Below are positions 7,023 through 25,097 of a stretch of 64,000 bases of DNA, piece after piece. This DNA comes from Gammaproteobacteria bacterium (lineage in GTDB: Bacteria > Pseudomonadota > Gammaproteobacteria > JAJPIJ01): NCBI GenBank assembly GCA_022071965.1, contig JAJVIQ010000009.1:1-64000 (forward strand), in the 5' to 3' direction. The notes below the pieces were generated by a model. The model was not told where the DNA came from. It worked only from the letters and a program-made list of their open reading frames with translations, and ran no database searches. Numbering within the stretch: the first letter of the stretch is position 1; each line of letters opens with the position of its first letter. A program made the position numbers and the translations under genes.

Positions 7023-8081
7023 ATGGCACCAGCGGAAGAGCCGATCAACGTCGCCATCCTCGCCTTCCCCGAGGCCACCGCCTCCACGGTCTACGGCATG
7101 TACGACCTGTTCAAGTCGGCCGGCCGCGACTGGGGGTACATCGTTGAAGGCCGGGCCGGTCGCGAGCGCATGCGCCCTCTCGTGGCGGCATCGGGCATGG
7201 AGCCGTTCGCGGCGGCCAACGGCGTCAGGATGCAGCCGGATTGCACGCTGGCCCATTGCCCCGCACCGGACGTGGTGTGCGTTCCGGAGATTCTCCTGCC
7301 GCCGGGCGAGCCGCTCGCCGGGCGCTTCGGCCCCGAGACTGAATGGCTGCGGCGAAGCTACGCGGACGGCGCGACGATCACCACGGCCTGCTCCGGGGCC
7401 ATGTTGCTGGCGGAGGCGGGCCTGCTCGACGGGCACGAGGCGACCACGCACTGGGCCTACTGCGACACGATGAAGCGGCGATATCCGCAGATCAGGGTCG
7501 TCGGTCAGCGCGCGCTGGTCGCCTCCGGCGCCGGTCAACGCCTGATCATGGCGGGCGGCGGCACCTCATGGCTGGACGTCGCCCTGTTCGTCGTCGCGCG
7601 CTTCGTCGGCGTCGAGGAGGCCATGCAGCTGGCGCGTCTCTCGCTCATCGACTGGCACGACATCGGCCAGCAGCCGTTCGCGAGCCTGGCCTACGGCCGG
7701 CAGAACGAGGATGCGCTCATCGCGCGCTGCCAGGTGTGGATCGCGGAGCACTACGCGCGGCCCTCGCCGGTGGCGGGCATGACCGGGTTCAGCGGATTGC
7801 CGGAGAGATCGTTCAAACGCCGCTTTCAGCACGCCACCGGCATGTCGCCGCTCGACTACGTGCATACGCTGCGGATCGAGGAATCCAAGCACATGCTGGA
7901 AAGCACCGACATGGCCGTGGAGGCCATCGCGCAGGAGATCGGTTACGAGGATGCCGGATTTTTTGGTCGGCTGTTTCGCCGCAAGGTCGGCCTGACGCCG
8001 GCGCAATACCGCCGGCGCTTCGGCGCAATGCGACGTGCCCTGAGCGCGGCCGAACGGGCGTGGGAGCGGGGCGAGGGCTGA
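7023..8081 (+). CDS. GlxA-type transcriptional regulator (DJ-1/PfpI domain plus AraC DNA-binding domain)
   Basis: The 352-residue protein has an N-terminal DJ-1/PfpI-like domain (about 10-195) with the nucleophile-elbow Cys in TTACSGAMLLAEAG, and a C-terminal AraC-type domain with two helix-turn-helix motifs at about 235-335 (FSGLPERSFKRRF; AQEIGYEDAGFFGRLFRRKVG). This is the GlxA/FtrA architecture, in which the degenerate amidotransferase-like domain probably binds a small ligand. It is divergent from the homocysteine methyltransferase gene with a 111-bp intergenic region, the likely site of regulation. Confidence 0.93.
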   Translation: MAPAEEPINVAILAFPEATASTVYGMYDLFKSAGRDWGYIVEGRAGRERMRPLVAASGMEPFAAANGVRMQPDCTLAHCPAPDVVCVPEILLPPGEPLAGRFGPETEWLRRSYADGATITTACSGAMLLAEAGLLDGHEATTHWAYCDTMKRRYPQIRVVGQRALVASGAGQRLIMAGGGTSWLDVALFVVARFVGVEEAMQLARLSLIDWHDIGQQPFASLAYGRQNEDALIARCQVWIAEHYARPSPVAGMTGFSGLPERSFKRRFQHATGMSPLDYVHTLRIEESKHMLESTDMAVEAIAQEIGYEDAGFFGRLFRRKVGLTPAQYRRRFGAMRRALSAAERAWERGEG

Positions 8082-8127
8082 GCCGGAATTCGCGCGTGGT
8101 CGCCGCGGTTCGCTCGCTGCCGTGCGC

Positions 8128-8730
8128 TCAGCGGCGCATCTCGAGCGAGCCGCCGCCCCGGGCATCGTGGCTGCCGGAGCCGAGGCTCTGATGCGGCCGG
8201 TGGCCATGGTGGCCGGGGCGCCCGTCGTGTCCGGGCGGCGACCCGTGGCCGGGGCGGGGGTCGAAGGGCGGCGACCAGCCTCGACCCGGATGCCAGCCGG
8301 GGCGGATCGGGAACGTCGGGGCCCCGTAGTATGGCGGAAAGTACACGCCGGCCCGCCAGACTCCCAGCTCGTCCGGGTAGACCACCGCGGGCGCCGGGGT
8401 GGAGGCGGCGTAGCGCGCCTGCTCGTCGGCCTCGCGCTGCAGGCGCGCCAGGCGTTCCCGCTCCAGGCGGTCGGCCAGCTCGCGATCCCGCTGTCGCAGG
8501 TCCTCGCGCGCCTTCTCCATCGCCGCGGCATCCTCGGGCGACACCGGGAGCGGCTCGGGCACGTCCACGACCGACTCGCTGCTGCCGGCGCGGCAGGGGG
8601 CGTCCTGGTAGGTGACCGAGCCGTCGCCCGCCTTGCATTTGTATGCCTGCCCATGGGCCGCGGGGGCCACGCCGAGGATCGCGAGGACGGCAACCAGGCA
8701 TTTTCGCGGCGTACCTTGCATCGGGTTCAT
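8128..8730 (-). CDS. Exported DUF4124-domain protein
   Basis: The 200-residue product has a signal peptide (to about residue 28, PAAHGQ) followed by the DUF4124 signature (AYKCKAGDGSVTYQDAPC) at about 29-50. A charged helical region at about 70-110 (EKAREDLRQRDRELADRLE) is a likely short coiled coil. The C-terminus is a Gly/Pro/His-rich low-complexity tail. DUF4124 is a short beta module common in proteobacterial secreted proteins of unknown role. The start could also be the second Met (MQGTPRK), 3 codons downstream. It is convergent with the GlxA-type regulator. Confidence 0.85.
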   Translation of the reverse strand: MNPMQGTPRKCLVAVLAILGVAPAAHGQAYKCKAGDGSVTYQDAPCRAGSSESVVDVPEPLPVSPEDAAAMEKAREDLRQRDRELADRLERERLARLQREADEQARYAASTPAPAVVYPDELGVWRAGVYFPPYYGAPTFPIRPGWHPGRGWSPPFDPRPGHGSPPGHDGRPGHHGHRPHQSLGSGSHDARGGGSLEMRR

Positions 8731-9167
8731 ACATTGAGCCTATTCGCTATTGACGTGATTCTCCAGTGCCAGGATCAACCTCCGCGCATCCCGCGCCACC
8801 ACATGACCGGTGCCGCGAACGGCGGCGCCGTTCTTCGCGCCCTGTTCGGTGCGGGACGATCCGTGACGCCGGGTGCGCGTGTCGCGTCGATGTCATCCAA
8901 GCGGGACAATCAACCGTGACGCGCCGGGAATCCGGCGCTTGCGATATCGGCGCAAGAGGCATTTGCGCCCGGGTTTGGGCAGGAGTAGTGTTGCGCTGTC
9001 ACGCCTGCCCGCCGTCCATTCCCGACGAGGCAGTGCTGTCTGGGACCGCAGAAAGACCAAAAAACTGCAAGGACGCTGGCCAGACCCGGAAGGCCCGTGA
9101 CAACCGCAATCCAATCGTAGTTTGGCCAGATTCAACGATGTGGGATGTTTTCAAGGAGGGTGCATTC
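8731..9167. other. 437-bp intergenic region with one 7-bp hairpin
   Basis: No convincing gene was found. The divergent promoters for the DUF4124 gene (minus) and the HbpS-like gene (plus) must lie here. A hairpin is visible at 8949-8969 (GGCGCAA / TTGCGCC, 7-nt loop). The last 60 bp before 9168 are less GC-rich than the surroundings and carry the AAGGAGGG ribosome-binding site of the next gene. Confidence 0.5.
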
Positions 9168-9965
9168 ATGAAATCAAAATCATACGCACTGAAGTTCGCG
9201 CTGGCCGGTGGCGTCGCCTTCAGTCTGATGGCGAACGTCGCTTTCGCCGACAGCAAGGGCAAGGGCCCGCAATCGAGTGCCGCGTGCAAGGGGTTGCCAA
9301 ACCATTACCAGCTCAAGAGGGCGCTGATCAACGCGCGCATCACGCCGAACGGCGGCTTCAACCTCGACATGTGGGGAACGATCGTCAATCGCGACGGTGT
9401 CGTCTGCGCGGTGGCCTTCACCGGCGCGAATCGCGGATCGCAGTGGCCGGGCAGCCGAGTCATCTCGGCCCAGAAGGCCAACACCGCCAATGCCTTCAGC
9501 CTGCCGGGCCTGGCGTTGTCGACCGCGAACCTGTTCACCGCGGTTCAGCCCGGGGGTACGCTCTACGGTCTGCAACACAGCAACCCGGTCGACACCGGCG
9601 TGGCGTACAAGGGACCGGCACAGCACTTCGGGAAGCCGCAGGATCCCATGGTGGGCAACCGGATTGGCGGCGTGAACGTATTCGGTGGCGGCGTCGGACT
9701 TTACGACGCCAACGGGACGTTGGTCGGAGGATTGGGCGTCAGCGGCGACTCTTCGTGCGCCGACCATAATATTGCGTGGAAGACGCGTTACGGCCTGAAC
9801 CTGGACAATGTTCCCGCGGGCGTCGCCGCCGGCGGTACTGACAACATCATTTACGATATCGCGCCCCCGTCGGCATCCGGATTCGGACATCCGGAGTGCA
9901 GCGCCGACGCCACGAGCATCGGGAATGGTTTGCCGGCCACGCATCCGATCGGTCCCAATCCGTAG
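9168..9965 (+). CDS. Secreted HbpS/GlcG-like (DUF336) heme-binding family protein
   Basis: The 265-residue protein has a signal peptide (MKSKSYALKFALAGG..., cleaved after about residue 25, AFAD). The body resembles the DUF336 fold: an early helix (LKRALINARI), the segment GVVCAVAFTGANRG, SRVISAQKANTANAFS and the Gly-rich strand GGVGLYDANGTLVGGLGVSGDSSCADH. Family members bind heme or act as exported sensors of redox stress. The start is chosen for its AAGGAGGG site 7 nt upstream; the open frame extends further 5' but without coding character. A Rho-independent terminator follows at 10007, so the gene is probably monocistronic. Confidence 0.85.
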   Translation: MKSKSYALKFALAGGVAFSLMANVAFADSKGKGPQSSAACKGLPNHYQLKRALINARITPNGGFNLDMWGTIVNRDGVVCAVAFTGANRGSQWPGSRVISAQKANTANAFSLPGLALSTANLFTAVQPGGTLYGLQHSNPVDTGVAYKGPAQHFGKPQDPMVGNRIGGVNVFGGGVGLYDANGTLVGGLGVSGDSSCADHNIAWKTRYGLNLDNVPAGVAAGGTDNIIYDIAPPSASGFGHPECSADATSIGNGLPATHPIGPNP

Positions 9966-19502: not shown

Positions 19503-20369
19503 TCAGCTCCGGGTCTGCGGGATCGCATCCAGGACGGCGGCGGCCCTGCGCGATCCCAGCTCGATCATCTCCCGGGCGCGATGGAATTCCAGCAAGCCGC
19601 AGGCATCGCGCGGGATTTCTATCAGCACGTCGGGCGCGTGGGCGGCGAGCTTCAGTCTCGCCACGGTGCCCTGCATGATGTCCAGCGATCGGGCGACCAC
19701 GTCGAGCAGACCCAGCGCCGGCGGCTCGCTCTCGCCGTCGCCGGGATGGATCTCGTTCAGGAATTTCGCCACGGCACGGCTGTACTGATCGAGCACGCCG
19801 CCGGGCGGCGGGTCGGGCTGGTCTGCGCGCGGCAGGTGCTCGGCCTTGCCGCCGAGGTTGACCGCGATGATCAGGTCGGTGAGATCCCGGAGCGTCGGCG
19901 CGATCGGCACCGGATTGGTGAGGCTGCCGTCGACGAGGACGCGGCCCTCGTACCCGTGGGGCGTGAACACCGTCGGTATCGCTATCGACGCGCGTATGGC
20001 GTCGAACAGTCGGCCGCGCGTGAACCAGACTTCCTTGCCGGTATCGAGATCGGTCGCCACGGCGGTGAAGGGGATCGGCAGATCCTCGATGTTGCAATCG
20101 CCGATGAGTTGCCGCAGCAGATCGATGATGCGTTCGCCTTTGAACAGCCCGCTCCAGACGAAGGCGAGGTCGAGCAGACGAAACACGTCGCGACGGGTCA
20201 GGGCGCAGACCCATTTTCGGTAGGCGTCCAGCTTGCCCGCCGCATAGATGCCGCCGATCAGCGCGCCCATCGAGGCTCCGGCGACCGAGCGGATCTCGTA
20301 GCTATGCTGGAGGACGCAGTCGATCACCCCGATATGCGCGAGGCCGCGCGCGCCGCCGCTGCCCAACAC
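19503..20369 (-). CDS. Patatin-like phospholipase (RssA type)
   Basis: The sequence starts at the oxyanion-hole motif LGSGGARGLAHIGVID, has the nucleophile serine in VAGASMGALIGG and the catalytic Asp in VLVDGSLTNPVP, so the Ser-Asp dyad is intact. Members hydrolyse acyl lipids. The annotated GTG at 20369 leaves no residues before the glycine motif; relatives usually have 6-10 more. In-frame upstream sequence reads LRHKTVSLVLGSGG from a CTG at 20393 that follows GGGAAGG, so a non-AUG start there is plausible. It lies 16-40 bp after the giant FecR/TPR/barrel gene, probably in one operon. Confidence 0.88.
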   Translation of the reverse strand: MLGSGGARGLAHIGVIDCVLQHSYEIRSVAGASMGALIGGIYAAGKLDAYRKWVCALTRRDVFRLLDLAFVWSGLFKGERIIDLLRQLIGDCNIEDLPIPFTAVATDLDTGKEVWFTRGRLFDAIRASIAIPTVFTPHGYEGRVLVDGSLTNPVPIAPTLRDLTDLIIAVNLGGKAEHLPRADQPDPPPGGVLDQYSRAVAKFLNEIHPGDGESEPPALGLLDVVARSLDIMQGTVARLKLAAHAPDVLIEIPRDACGLLEFHRAREMIELGSRRAAAVLDAIPQTRS

Positions 20370-20408: not shown

Positions 20409-23400
20409 TCAGAAACGCAAGCCGATGCCCAGCGTCGCCGACCAGCTGCTCCAGTTCGCCTCGTTCAGGCGGGTCGTCGCGTTCGTGCCGTCGGAGAAGT
20501 ACACGTCATCGGTCCCGGCGTCGGTGGACCAGTCCTGCCAGGTTCCACGCGCCTGCAGATACCAGCGTCCACCCTCGCGCGTCGTGCCGCGGCGGTTGAG
20601 CAGATCGGGAAACCAGTCGGCGCCGACGGAAACGACCCAGCCGTTGGCATCGGCGTCCTGCTCGAAGCTCCTGGGGTGTACGAACGCCTCGCGCAGATTC
20701 CAGTTTGCCTCCCCGTGGAAATCCGCCCAGTGGTATTCGCCGGTCGCGAAGAACTGCAGGTTGCTCGGGAGCTCGATGCTGGCGCGCATGCCGACCCACG
20801 GGCCGTTCCACTCCGCCTCATAGGTGCTGTCCACGCCCGGGATCGGCCCGCTGCCGCCAACGACCTGGACCGTGTCGGTGTCGCGCAGGCTCTGCACGTG
20901 ATGCGAGTAGCCGGCCAGCGGGATCAGGTAGCCGCGACCCGCCGCGGGCGTGTCGTAGACGCGCAGGCGCCAGCCGACGCCGCCGCTCGCGTCGCGCACC
21001 TCGTCGTCTTCGGTCTGCGACAGCGAACGGGAGAACTCCGCGGTGCGATTGTCGCCGGCGTAGTCCGAGTCGCGATTCTCGCCGTCGAAGATCCCGCCAT
21101 AGGCGAACATGCCGGTCAGGTAGAGCCCCGGGCGGAAGGCGGCGTAGGCATCGGCGCGGAACATCGCGATCTGCAGATCCTCCCAGGTCAGCTCGGAGAG
21201 GATGTTGGGCGTGGCGGTGCCGCTGGGATCGCTGGCGATGTTCCAGTCGAGGCTGTCCTCGCGGTAGCCGGCGGAGAGGCCGATCCCGAAATCCGTGCGC
21301 GCCGTGCGTCCGGACAGCGACCAGCGCCCGTCGTCGCGACTTGAACCGGTTCCGCCGCCTGCCGTCGCCGCGCCGTCGCCCGCGGGCGTGGTCAGTGTCG
21401 GCGTCTCCGTGAACGCCGGCGCGCCGGTGGTCTCGCGATCGACGGCATCCTTGCCGAATTGGTATTCGGCGGTGAGAAAGACACTGCGCCCGGGCGTCGG
21501 GAAGCCGCCGGTGAATTCCGGCTGCTCGTCGAGGAGATCGTTGACCGTGACATTGACGTACCAGTGCTTGCGCATCGGTTCCCAGGTCGCGCCGATGCCG
21601 GTGAGCCAGTATCCGTCCAGCCGCACGGTGTTGAGCGGGTCGTCCCAGCGCTCGCCGACGTATCGCGCGAACACGCTGGCACGCACGTGGCGCGGGTGCA
21701 CCCAGGTGAGGCTGAGATCGGCCTGACTCTCCTGGATGAGCGGCAGATCGAGTCCGTCGGCCGGGTCCTCGCTCCACAGGCGCAGATACTGGCCGCGCAA
21801 TCCCCAGCGCTCGCCCAGCCAGATGTTGGTGCCGACGCGCGCGATGTCGATGTGCCCCTCGTCATAGTCGAACCCGGAGCGGGAGAAGTCCTTCAGTTCA
21901 CTGTGTCCGTAGCCGGCGAAGGTGAAGAACCGCGACGTCCACTCCGCCTCCCAGCGGACCTGGTAGTCGTCCACGCTCGGTCCGCCCTCGAAGAAGGTGA
22001 AGAACTGATCCTCGACCACGAAGCCCGCGGTGTCCACGGGGGCGAGCGTCTCGGAGGCCCGCTGCGGGAAGAGCAGCTTGCGCTGGGCCGCGGCCCGCAG
22101 CCAGTGATTGTCCGTCATCCGCCACGCGAGCCCCAGGCGCGGGTCCACCTGCTCCCGACTGGTGGTGCCGGTGAAGCGGGTGCCGAAGATATCGGGGTTC
22201 ACGTCCTTGACCTCGAGACGTCGTCCGAACGCGCCCGCGTCCAGCCACAGGTCGGGATTGATCTTCCACCGTCCCCGCGCATAGAGCGTCTGGGCGCTCA
22301 CGTCGCGGCTCGACAGCTCGGTGAAGATCGCCGGAGAGAACCCGGTGAAGGCCGCGGTGTCGATGTTCGTCTTGCCGTTGGCGTCGTACCACTCCGCGCC
22401 CCAGGTGAACTCCACCGGGCCGATGTCGAGCAGGTGGCGCAGCTGGAACTGGAAGTAGGTGTTGCTCGTGTCGATCTCCGAGTTGCACGGCAGGGTGCAG
22501 ACGAAATTCGGATCGATGGGGAAGTCGAGATCGTTGTAGGTCCGCCCCTCGTTGTGCTCGGTGCCGCCGAACACGCGCACCATCAGCCGGTTGTTGAAGC
22601 TGAAGCGATGCTGGTAGCCGAGCGAGGCGAAGATGAACTCGTCGAGCGCGCGATCGTCGCGATCGTTGTCGGTGTCGCGCGTGCCGTTGTCGAACCGGTG
22701 CGCATCGAGGATGAACAGCAGGTTGTGCTTGCGCTCGTCCAGCGTCGAGCCCAGGCCGATGAACACGGACTCGTTGGTGAAATCGGCATTGTCGCGGTAG
22801 CCGTCGTCGTCGGTGTGCGCGCCGCTGACGTAGTAGGCGAGCGGATTCGGCGTGCGCAGGTAGCCCTGCGAGGTGGCGTAGGCGGTGTAGTTGGCCGCCC
22901 CGCCGTTTGAGCCGATCGTCGCGCCGGCGCTCAGATCGTTGCGCGGCTGGCGGAACGGCTCGTAGTAGCGCGTCGGGAAGGAGATCGCCGTGGGGTCCAG
23001 CAGCAGGCCCTGGCGGTTGGATCCGAGGCGCGCATCCTCCGAGGCGAACTGGTTGTCCTGCGAGAGATAGAAGTAGCCGTTGGCCAGGTAGGGGTCGAAG
23101 GCGAGCAGGGTGTAGTAGCCGCCCCATTCGTAGAGGCCGAGGTTGGTGTAGGCATTGCCGAGCGTGGCGCTGCCGCTGCGCGCGTTGGCCAGCGTCTCCA
23201 CCGCGAACGATTCGCTGCGCAGCGTCTTCTGGAAGCCTTCGCGGGCATAGCGTATGGCCTCGCCCGCCTCGTACTGGTCGACCGCCATGATCGATCCCAT
23301 CACGTCGGGGATGGGATCGTCGGGATCGAACTGGCGGGCGGTGTCGAGCTCCTTCTTGGCATCCTCGAAGCGCCCCGTCTGGTAGTAAGCGGCGGCGAGA

Positions 23401-25097
23401 TTGCGGTTGACACCCGGCAGCTCCGGATCGATGGCGCCGGCGGCGAGAAACGCCCCGGCCGCGGAGTCCGGATCGCCCCGGAACAGATCGAGGAACCCCA
23501 GGCCCACCTGGCTGTAGGGCTGCGACGGGTCCAGGCGCGATGCCTCGCGGAACTGGGCCTCGGCATCGTCGAGGCGGTCGAGGAAGGCGAGGATGAAGCC
23601 GTAGTTGGACTTCGTTATCGGGCTGCGCGGGTCCGAGCGCAGGGCCTCCTGCATCGCGCGCTGCGTGGCCTTGTAGTCGCCGCGGTCGAGCTCGACCAGC
23701 GCGAGATTGTTCCAGCTCGCCGTTTGGTTTGGATTCACGCGCACCGCGTGCGCGTAGGCCTCGCGCGCGGCGTTCGCGTCGGGCTCGGCGTAATGGTGAT
23801 ACAGCCCCTTCACATACCACGCGAACGGCATCTCGGGATCGATGGCCAGGGCGCGATCGATGCCTGCCTTCATCTCGTCGGGCTGCCCGAGGAGAAAGGC
23901 GACATAGGCGTAAAGCGCGGGGAAGCGCGGGTCGTGGGTGTAGACCGCCTCGCCGTCGCGGGCGATCCTCATCGCCTCTTCATGCCGGCCAGCGAACGAC
24001 GCCAGCCACGACTGGAAAAGCATCACCTCGGGGTAGCGCGCCGACTCGCCGGCGTGCCTCCGGACCTTCGCCTCCGCATCCGCGTATCGTCGCTGCTCGA
24101 CATCCACGCCGGCGCTGCCCAGTTCCGCGATGACCCTGGCGCGACCGGTGAGACTTGCCGCAGCCCCGTCGAGATCGCTGCGGGCGACGTCGAGGTCGCG
24201 GCGGCGAACATCGAGCAGGCCTGTTACGAGCTGGGCGCGCGCCTGATCGGCCGTGCCTGGATTGGCGGCCGCCGCGCGCTGCAGCGCTGTGGCCGCCGCC
24301 GAATAGTCGCCCTGATCGTAGGCGACCGCCGCGAGGTCCACGAGCGATGTGGCCGTCGCCCCGGCCACGGCGCTCTGCTCCAGCTGCTCGCGGGCCCACT
24401 CGAGTTCGACGGTGCGCTGGCCGCCGACGGTCAGCATGTCGAACCATTCCAGTTCCGTCTCCATGACGATGAGCGGGCGGTTGCGCAGATCGACCACGGT
24501 GCGCTTGGTCGGCGGCTTGCCGCGTACCACCGTGCCCTGCTCGCCGCTCCCGACCTGGATGGCGCCGAGCTCGTTGGCGAGATCGACCTCGCCGGCGAGC
24601 ACGATGACGTCAGTGCGGCCGTCCTCGCCCACGCTCACGTACCAGTCCGTGCCGCGGATGCCGATGGTGGCGGTGGGCGTGGACATCTCCACGGCCTGGC
24701 GGCCGATGCCCATCTCGCCGGTGACGGCGCGCAGCAGCGCCTTGGCGCGCGACCATGCCGAGCCGGTAAGCAGCCGGAACTTGCTGAGCTCGCCGCCGGC
24801 GCCACGGACCTGCCCGATCTCGAAGGTGCTCTGGCGATGGATGCGGATCTGCGTGTCGTCCCGCAGCAGGATGGCGGCCGAACCGTAGGGTCCGGTCTTT
24901 AGGACGTCGCCGGCCGCGACGCTCTGCCCGACCTGCAGCGGCCGCGCACCGGGCGCGCCGGCAGGTTGCAGCGTCTCGTCGCCCCTGGCGGCGACCACGC
25001 GCCCGACGGCCGTGCCCGGCCCTTCGGCGCCAATGGCGATAGCGGATGTAAGGCCGAGCACCGCAGCCAGCACAGCCGCCCAAGTCGTGTGCCGCAT
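20409..25097 (-). CDS. Giant exported FecR-TPR protein with two outer-membrane barrel domains
   Basis: The 1562-residue protein has a signal peptide (about 1-24) and a FecR-like domain (about 37-180: GPYGSAAILLRDDTQIRIH, STPTATIGIRGTDWYV). About ten TPR-type repeats follow (about 245-600; e.g. NPNQTASWNNLALVELDRGDY). A long region of alternating beta strands (about 730-1210) resembles a TonB-dependent-receptor barrel and ends in FLTAEYQFG; no plug domain or TonB box was seen. After a Thr/Ala/Gly linker, a second beta domain (about 1255-1562) looks like an omptin barrel (ILSELTWEDLQIAMFRADAY) and ends with the terminal Phe typical of outer-membrane proteins (LGIGLRF). The omptin Asp-His pair is not evident. 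Probably an outer-membrane assembly or export protein; function unknown. Confidence 0.82.
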   Translation of the reverse strand: MRHTTWAAVLAAVLGLTSAIAIGAEGPGTAVGRVVAARGDETLQPAGAPGARPLQVGQSVAAGDVLKTGPYGSAAILLRDDTQIRIHRQSTFEIGQVRGAGGELSKFRLLTGSAWSRAKALLRAVTGEMGIGRQAVEMSTPTATIGIRGTDWYVSVGEDGRTDVIVLAGEVDLANELGAIQVGSGEQGTVVRGKPPTKRTVVDLRNRPLIVMETELEWFDMLTVGGQRTVELEWAREQLEQSAVAGATATSLVDLAAVAYDQGDYSAAATALQRAAAANPGTADQARAQLVTGLLDVRRRDLDVARSDLDGAAASLTGRARVIAELGSAGVDVEQRRYADAEAKVRRHAGESARYPEVMLFQSWLASFAGRHEEAMRIARDGEAVYTHDPRFPALYAYVAFLLGQPDEMKAGIDRALAIDPEMPFAWYVKGLYHHYAEPDANAAREAYAHAVRVNPNQTASWNNLALVELDRGDYKATQRAMQEALRSDPRSPITKSNYGFILAFLDRLDDAEAQFREASRLDPSQPYSQVGLGFLDLFRGDPDSAAGAFLAAGAIDPELPGVNRNLAAAYYQTGRFEDAKKELDTARQFDPDDPIPDVMGSIMAVDQYEAGEAIRYAREGFQKTLRSESFAVETLANARSGSATLGNAYTNLGLYEWGGYYTLLAFDPYLANGYFYLSQDNQFASEDARLGSNRQGLLLDPTAISFPTRYYEPFRQPRNDLSAGATIGSNGGAANYTAYATSQGYLRTPNPLAYYVSGAHTDDDGYRDNADFTNESVFIGLGSTLDERKHNLLFILDAHRFDNGTRDTDNDRDDRALDEFIFASLGYQHRFSFNNRLMVRVFGGTEHNEGRTYNDLDFPIDPNFVCTLPCNSEIDTSNTYFQFQLRHLLDIGPVEFTWGAEWYDANGKTNIDTAAFTGFSPAIFTELSSRDVSAQTLYARGRWKINPDLWLDAGAFGRRLEVKDVNPDIFGTRFTGTTSREQVDPRLGLAWRMTDNHWLRAAAQRKLLFPQRASETLAPVDTAGFVVEDQFFTFFEGGPSVDDYQVRWEAEWTSRFFTFAGYGHSELKDFSRSGFDYDEGHIDIARVGTNIWLGERWGLRGQYLRLWSEDPADGLDLPLIQESQADLSLTWVHPRHVRASVFARYVGERWDDPLNTVRLDGYWLTGIGATWEPMRKHWYVNVTVNDLLDEQPEFTGGFPTPGRSVFLTAEYQFGKDAVDRETTGAPAFTETPTLTTPAGDGAATAGGGTGSSRDDGRWSLSGRTARTDFGIGLSAGYREDSLDWNIASDPSGTATPNILSELTWEDLQIAMFRADAYAAFRPGLYLTGMFAYGGIFDGENRDSDYAGDNRTAEFSRSLSQTEDDEVRDASGGVGWRLRVYDTPAAGRGYLIPLAGYSHHVQSLRDTDTVQVVGGSGPIPGVDSTYEAEWNGPWVGMRASIELPSNLQFFATGEYHWADFHGEANWNLREAFVHPRSFEQDADANGWVVSVGADWFPDLLNRRGTTREGGRWYLQARGTWQDWSTDAGTDDVYFSDGTNATTRLNEANWSSWSATLGIGLRF

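Follow-up and report, generated by a model that had tools for sequence, protein, structure and literature searches.

A probable NsrA-type signal receptor of the outer membrane with a Pom-family barrel at its C-terminus

The window analysed here, a stretch of 64,000 nucleotides from a gammaproteobacterial contig, carries on its minus strand a reading frame that is open from 25127 to 20409. Read from the ATG at 25097, this frame encodes a fusion protein of 1562 amino acids, whose parts are as follows.

20409..25097, minus strand: coding sequence of the 1562-aa fusion protein (open reading frame, with an intact copy in one other genome of the genus)
25026..25097, minus strand: signal peptide, residues 1-24, MRHTTWAAVLAAVLGLTSAIAIGA (read from the sequence)
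24462..25025, minus strand: FecR-type beta domain, residues 25-212 (Pfam and AlphaFold2)
24585-24908, minus strand: Pfam FecR match, residues 64-171, 40.8 bits
22983..24446, minus strand: TPR solenoid, residues 218-705 (Pfam and AlphaFold2)
21456..22943, minus strand: barrel 1, predicted to be a plugless 22-stranded barrel of the TonB-receptor type, residues 719-1214, last residue F1214 (AlphaFold2, Foldseek, VIA-align and the invariant terminal Phe of relatives)
21303..21455, minus strand: linker rich in Gly, Ala and Thr, residues 1215-1265, fast evolving, dN/dS 0.61 (comparison of two genomes)
20412..21278, minus strand: barrel 2, a Pom domain by family match (PF17251), residues 1274-1562, ending in Phe (E 2.8e-53; dN/dS 0.157)
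21183..21197, minus strand: SELTW motif, residues 1301-1305, common to omptins (sequence comparison)
21063..21071, minus strand: D1343-S-D1345, aligned with the catalytic Asp pair of omptins (alignment; each Asp is conserved in 25 of 26 Pom sequences)
20676..20678, minus strand: H1474 in F-V-H-P, a possible counterpart of the omptin His, with no Asp two residues earlier (alignment)

A signal peptide, and an order of domains that runs from FecR through TPR and a barrel to a linker and another barrel, had been proposed in a sequence-only reading of this DNA. Both are borne out by the sequence, by Pfam and by AlphaFold2, and the protein does end in the expected Phe (F1562). Pfam places several TPR models between residues 240 and 600, and the repeats number about 12. 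The second genome of the genus holds an intact fusion of about 90-92% identity, with the gene order unchanged. An assembly chimera was therefore rejected, because two separate genomes have the same junction at about 90% identity. Between these two genomes, dN/dS is 0.13 for FecR, 0.21 for TPR, 0.14 for barrel 1 and 0.157 for Pom, with the linker at 0.61. All domains of the protein are under purifying selection, and the low ratios of barrel 1 and Pom imply that both barrels are maintained.

For residues 25-1214, AlphaFold2 working from a 55-sequence alignment delivered a model (pLDDT 85.4, pTM 0.77) that contains the FecR beta domain, the TPR solenoid and 22 long strands, which span residues 719-1213. 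Foldseek gave TonB-dependent transporters as the top matches of this barrel (PqqU at E 3.7e-19; also FhuA, BtuB and FecA), and VIA-align matched it to BauA with a Z of 22 over 474 residues at 3.3 A. A profile search for a TonB receptor added a weak resemblance of residues 1114-1214 to TonB-receptor C-termini (NCBIfam TIGR01783, E 9e-9, below cut-off). No Pfam family covers the middle part of the protein, where barrel 1 lies. The plug domain PF07715 was not found by Pfam at E up to 5, and phmmer searches with both barrels against PDB sequences gave no convincing relative. The structural comparisons thus agree with the sequence-only reading, which had described the first barrel as plugless and TonB-receptor-like: barrel 1 is predicted to have the TonB-receptor fold without a match to the plug family. 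It shares with FecA, FhuA and PqqU the fold of a 22-stranded barrel, but the fusion protein differs from those receptors in having no Pfam plug match and in placing FecR and TPR before the barrel in one chain.

The point at which barrel 1 ends is indicated by its relatives. A C-terminal Phe is invariant in the 55-sequence alignment, and F1214 is its counterpart; the fusion would therefore have arisen at the position of the relatives' stop codon. A single continuous barrel was considered and rejected, because each barrel occurs alone in other genomes and because barrel 1 closes at this invariant residue. The protein accordingly has two barrels, as had been supposed, the second being recognised from a family match.

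Residues 1-1240 are collinear with a 1198-aa stretch of a protein encoded on pSymB of S. meliloti 2011. The core (residues 1-1214) is also collinear with proteins of Rhizobium, Methylocystis and S. sojae, and identity across this set, the pSymB protein included, is 26-28%. A relative from the same bacterial class, in genome G120, reaches 50% identity to the core. In S. meliloti 2011, the receptor gene ends where the next gene, for a 649-aa protein with CHASE2 and guanylate_cyc domains, begins; reportedly (Garnerone et al., in 2018), nsrA (smb20775) lies directly upstream of cyaK. From its length, the position of its barrel and the adjoining CHASE2 cyclase, the pSymB protein is almost certainly NsrA. 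Collinearity of sequence places the core in the NsrA-type family. The conserved barrel indicates a common fold and descent, of course, and says nothing of ligand or function.

NsrA is an outer-membrane beta-barrel receptor whose barrel lies at residues 600-1200, and sensing of a peptidic signal from the plant requires both NsrA and the adenylate cyclase CyaK, with ribosomal protein uL2 as the candidate signal (PMC7529298). NsrA acts through CHASE2 cyclases, and CyaK is one of these (PMC13001267). The fusion protein resembles NsrA in its signal peptide, FecR, TPR and barrel, which are collinear over the full length at 26-28%. It differs from NsrA in an extra C-terminal extension of 348 residues (linker and Pom barrel) and in the lack of a neighbouring cyclase. 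In S. meliloti strain ml59 (CP140948), the CHASE2-cyclase gene beside the NsrA-type gene (L072:9731-11679) is split over two frames; this cyclase gene is intact in strain 2011 (L078).

A scan for the core, with one genome per species and the best 80 matches kept, returned one locus in the sister genome and 79 from beyond the genus. The 79 are mostly Hyphomicrobiales, but Desulfobulbaceae, Nitrospirae, Arenimonas, Ramlibacter and an acidobacterial MAG are also represented. With profiles built here, a CHASE2-cyclase gene was found immediately downstream on the same strand in 71 of the 79, a proportion that is not a census, because only the 80 best matches were retained and rhizobia are over-represented among them; the other 8 have no adjacent CHASE2-cyclase. 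The cyclase is estimated to start between -58 and +70 nt from the receptor stop, with one at +292 nt. Non-rhizobia (Desulfobulbaceae, Nitrospirae, Arenimonas) are among the cyclase-linked relatives, and Pfam confirmed CHASE2 and Guanylate_cyc in both linked cyclases tested (n=2). This places the fusion protein in a broad and little-studied class of trans-envelope receptors, in which FecR, TPR and a plugless barrel of the TonB-receptor type go together with a CHASE2 cyclase, and which extends well beyond the rhizobia.

The genus itself does not keep these genes side by side. No CHASE2-cyclase gene adjoins the fusion gene in either genome of the genus, and no cyclase adjoins the receptor gene in G120; a CHASE2 partner of the receptor in this clade is therefore putative. 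The missing neighbour weakens the claim of a gene pair of the NsrA/CyaK type, not the homology of the core. In the sister genome and in G120 a CHASE2-cyclase is present, but elsewhere in the genome. The genome of the window has a single CHASE2 match, an unlinked protein of 966 aa (G000:C6, L077:6649-9549, minus strand) that reads CHASE2-PAS-GGDEF-EAL, where PAS, GGDEF and EAL were identified by eye rather than by profile. This protein is a candidate partner of the fusion receptor. Five class III cyclase matches lie elsewhere in the same genome. In G120, a gene for a CHASE2-protein kinase lies near the CHASE2-cyclase gene on the opposite strand (L177:3356-5881 and 7492-9828, G120:C25), with a comparable pair of CHASE2 genes in the sister genome (G342, L176).

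The next gene downstream of the fusion is an RssA-like patatin gene (19503-20369, minus strand). It was considered as an operon partner and dropped, because the sister genome lacks it at the corresponding place (L073); between these two close relatives, the gene has been either inserted or lost. Genes for carbonic anhydrase and RsmB, named from sequence and not by profile, lie further downstream and are kept in the sister genome.

The second barrel is identified as a Pom domain by its match to PF17251, which covers residues 1274-1562 with 181.5 bits (gathering score 22.4) over model positions 2-285 of 285. AlphaFold2, given only 2 sequences for this part, reached a pLDDT of 28, and no convincing relative emerged when the Pom profile was run with hmmsearch on PDB sequences. 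The family includes PomS and PomT, porins of Protochlamydia amoebophila, of which PomS conducts anions (PMC3561449). The fusion protein resembles these in that its residues 1274-1562 match the Pom model from end to end. It differs in that its Pom barrel is fused to a receptor rather than secreted on its own behind a signal peptide. Pore formation is shown for PomS only.

Pom is present in 30 of the 369 genomes of a class sample and in 9 of the 398 of a phylum sample. In these samples, Pom-bearing frames outside the genus are no longer than 569 aa, which indicates that Pom there is stand-alone or nearly so, and only the two genomes of the genus have Pom within a frame above 1500 aa. Among the best 80 core loci, a C-terminal extension of this size is found only in the sister genome. 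The order has four genomes in the collection, and the two that belong to another genus are without the fusion. Because Pom is solo in every other sampled genome, the fusion appears as a genus-specific addition at the stop codon of the receptor, seen in one genus so far. At a locus in another genome, two stand-alone Pom genes adjoin on opposite strands (L029, G036:C65:60557-62249).

Outer-membrane proteins with more than one barrel were reportedly surveyed by Solan et al. in 2021. A two-barrel protein already known is GfcD, a multi-barrel outer-membrane protein with 12 plus 13 strands (PMC11494523). With GfcD, and with the proteins said to be in that survey, the fusion of a receptor with a Pom barrel shares two barrels per chain and the character of a lineage-specific fusion; it differs from GfcD and other multi-barrel proteins in its barrel families, and in that one barrel is that of a signal receptor. 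As a rare two-barrel protein, this natural fusion of a receptor to a second barrel hints at which proteins may cooperate with such receptors.

The explanation that we prefer, with a probability of about 0.6, is that a signal receptor of the outer membrane, of the NsrA type, gained a Pom-family barrel at its C-terminus and so became this protein. The receptor reading draws support from the collinearity of the core with the NsrA family, from the linkage of its relatives to CHASE2 cyclases, and from the fold of barrel 1. The same parts might, of course, build an uptake or export machine, with conduits formed by both barrels, the plugless one of 22 strands and the porin-like one, and with cargo recruited by TPR and FecR. 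PgaA, BcsC and Slam are exporters that likewise have TPR and then a barrel in one chain. The failure of Pfam to find a plug domain fits such a machine, as does the anion conductance of PomS, the characterised Pom protein (PMC3561449). However, the fold searches match barrel 1 to TonB-dependent receptors and not to exporters of 14 to 16 strands, no genes for polysaccharides or secretion were seen immediately next to the fusion gene, and CHASE2 cyclases are linked in 71 of the 79 extra-genus relatives among the best 80 matches. On fold and neighbourhood, export of the PgaA, BcsC or Slam kind was ranked below the receptor reading, and a transport machine is unlikely. The earlier idea of an outer-membrane conduit coupled to the FecR/TPR module is, for its part, not supported; the core's nearest relatives are genetically tied to CHASE2 adenylate cyclases, and the relative that has been characterised is a receptor for a signal.

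It might also be that only the NsrA-type core matters, the Pom extension being a recent and functionally neutral read-through fusion. Such a history would suit the restriction of the fusion to one genus and the poor constraint on the linker (dN/dS 0.61). It is hard to reconcile with a Pom domain that is as constrained as the receptor barrel (0.157 against 0.14), that ends in a proper terminal Phe, and that shows no decay over about 10% protein divergence. A neutral extension is, on this evidence, very unlikely.

The second barrel had been called omptin-like in the sequence-only reading. By curated profile it is Pom; hmmscan, at E up to 5, found no match to omptin PF01278 in the fusion protein, and the omptin profile has no match in its own genome. 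The likeness nevertheless stands at a greater distance. An hhalign comparison of Pom (26 sequences) with omptin gave a probability of 94.6% and an E of 6.7e-8 over 246 columns, against 0.3% for reversed profiles, 0.7-34% for eight block-shuffled profiles and 0.6% for NsrA-type barrels. The omptin profile had three sequences only, because few genomes of the class (4 of 274) carry an omptin. Judged by this profile-profile comparison, Pom is very probably a distant relative of the omptins. This kinship points to a common origin of Pom porins and a protease family, perhaps with the rim of an active site in common.

The catalytic residues of OmpT are D83, D85, D210 and H212. In Pom and omptins alike, SELxW is followed about 42 residues on by DxD(Y/W), with nearly the same spacing, and D1343 and D1345 of the fusion protein we take to correspond to D83 and D85. 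Within the Pom family (alignment A4), D84 and D86 are each present in 25 of 26 proteins, and H215, which precedes an invariant Pro, in 20 of 26. The place of D210 is held by Phe or Leu in Pom, and a frequent Asp nearby is Ala in the fusion protein, where H1474 stands in A-F-V-H-P. The catalytic residues had been thought changed; this holds for the Asp of the Asp-His dyad, which is absent near H1474, but not for the Asp pair, which is kept. The fusion protein is thus like OmpT and Pla (PF01278) in its distant homology over the 246 columns, its SELxW and its Asp-x-Asp pair, and unlike them in lacking an hmmscan match and an intact dyad.

These likenesses would allow the Pom domain to be an omptin-like surface protease, or another hydrolase, that processes ligand on behalf of its tethered receptor. 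The hhalign match, robust to reversed and shuffled controls, the common motifs and the conserved Asp and His residues argue for it. The missing dyad Asp argues against it, and PomS is characterised as a porin, with no protease activity in the available part of its account (PMC3561449). A hydrolase of this kind is quite improbable.

For the NsrA-type receptor with a Pom barrel, the following course may be envisaged. Surface loops of the 22-stranded barrel would bind an external ligand. From there the signal would cross the envelope by way of the periplasmic TPR solenoid and FecR domain and reach an enzyme of the inner membrane that has a CHASE2 sensor and makes a cyclic nucleotide. The output may be c-di-GMP, because the genome's single CHASE2 match reads CHASE2-PAS-GGDEF-EAL, or another cyclase may be the partner. 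In the outer membrane, the Pom barrel would most likely be a neighbour of the receptor, a tethered accessory to bind, admit or process ligand. In a bolder and improbable version, the receptor has in one chain its own barrel for processing or admitting ligand: the omptin-related Pom barrel would cleave or capture an extracellular signal, and the NsrA-type receptor would report it across the envelope to an enzyme with CHASE2, which may be a c-di-GMP enzyme and not a cyclase.

Two more FecR-domain genes lie in tandem beside a convergent purL-like gene just outside the window (L075:9728-12371, plus strand; about 73.7-76.4 kb on contig C4).
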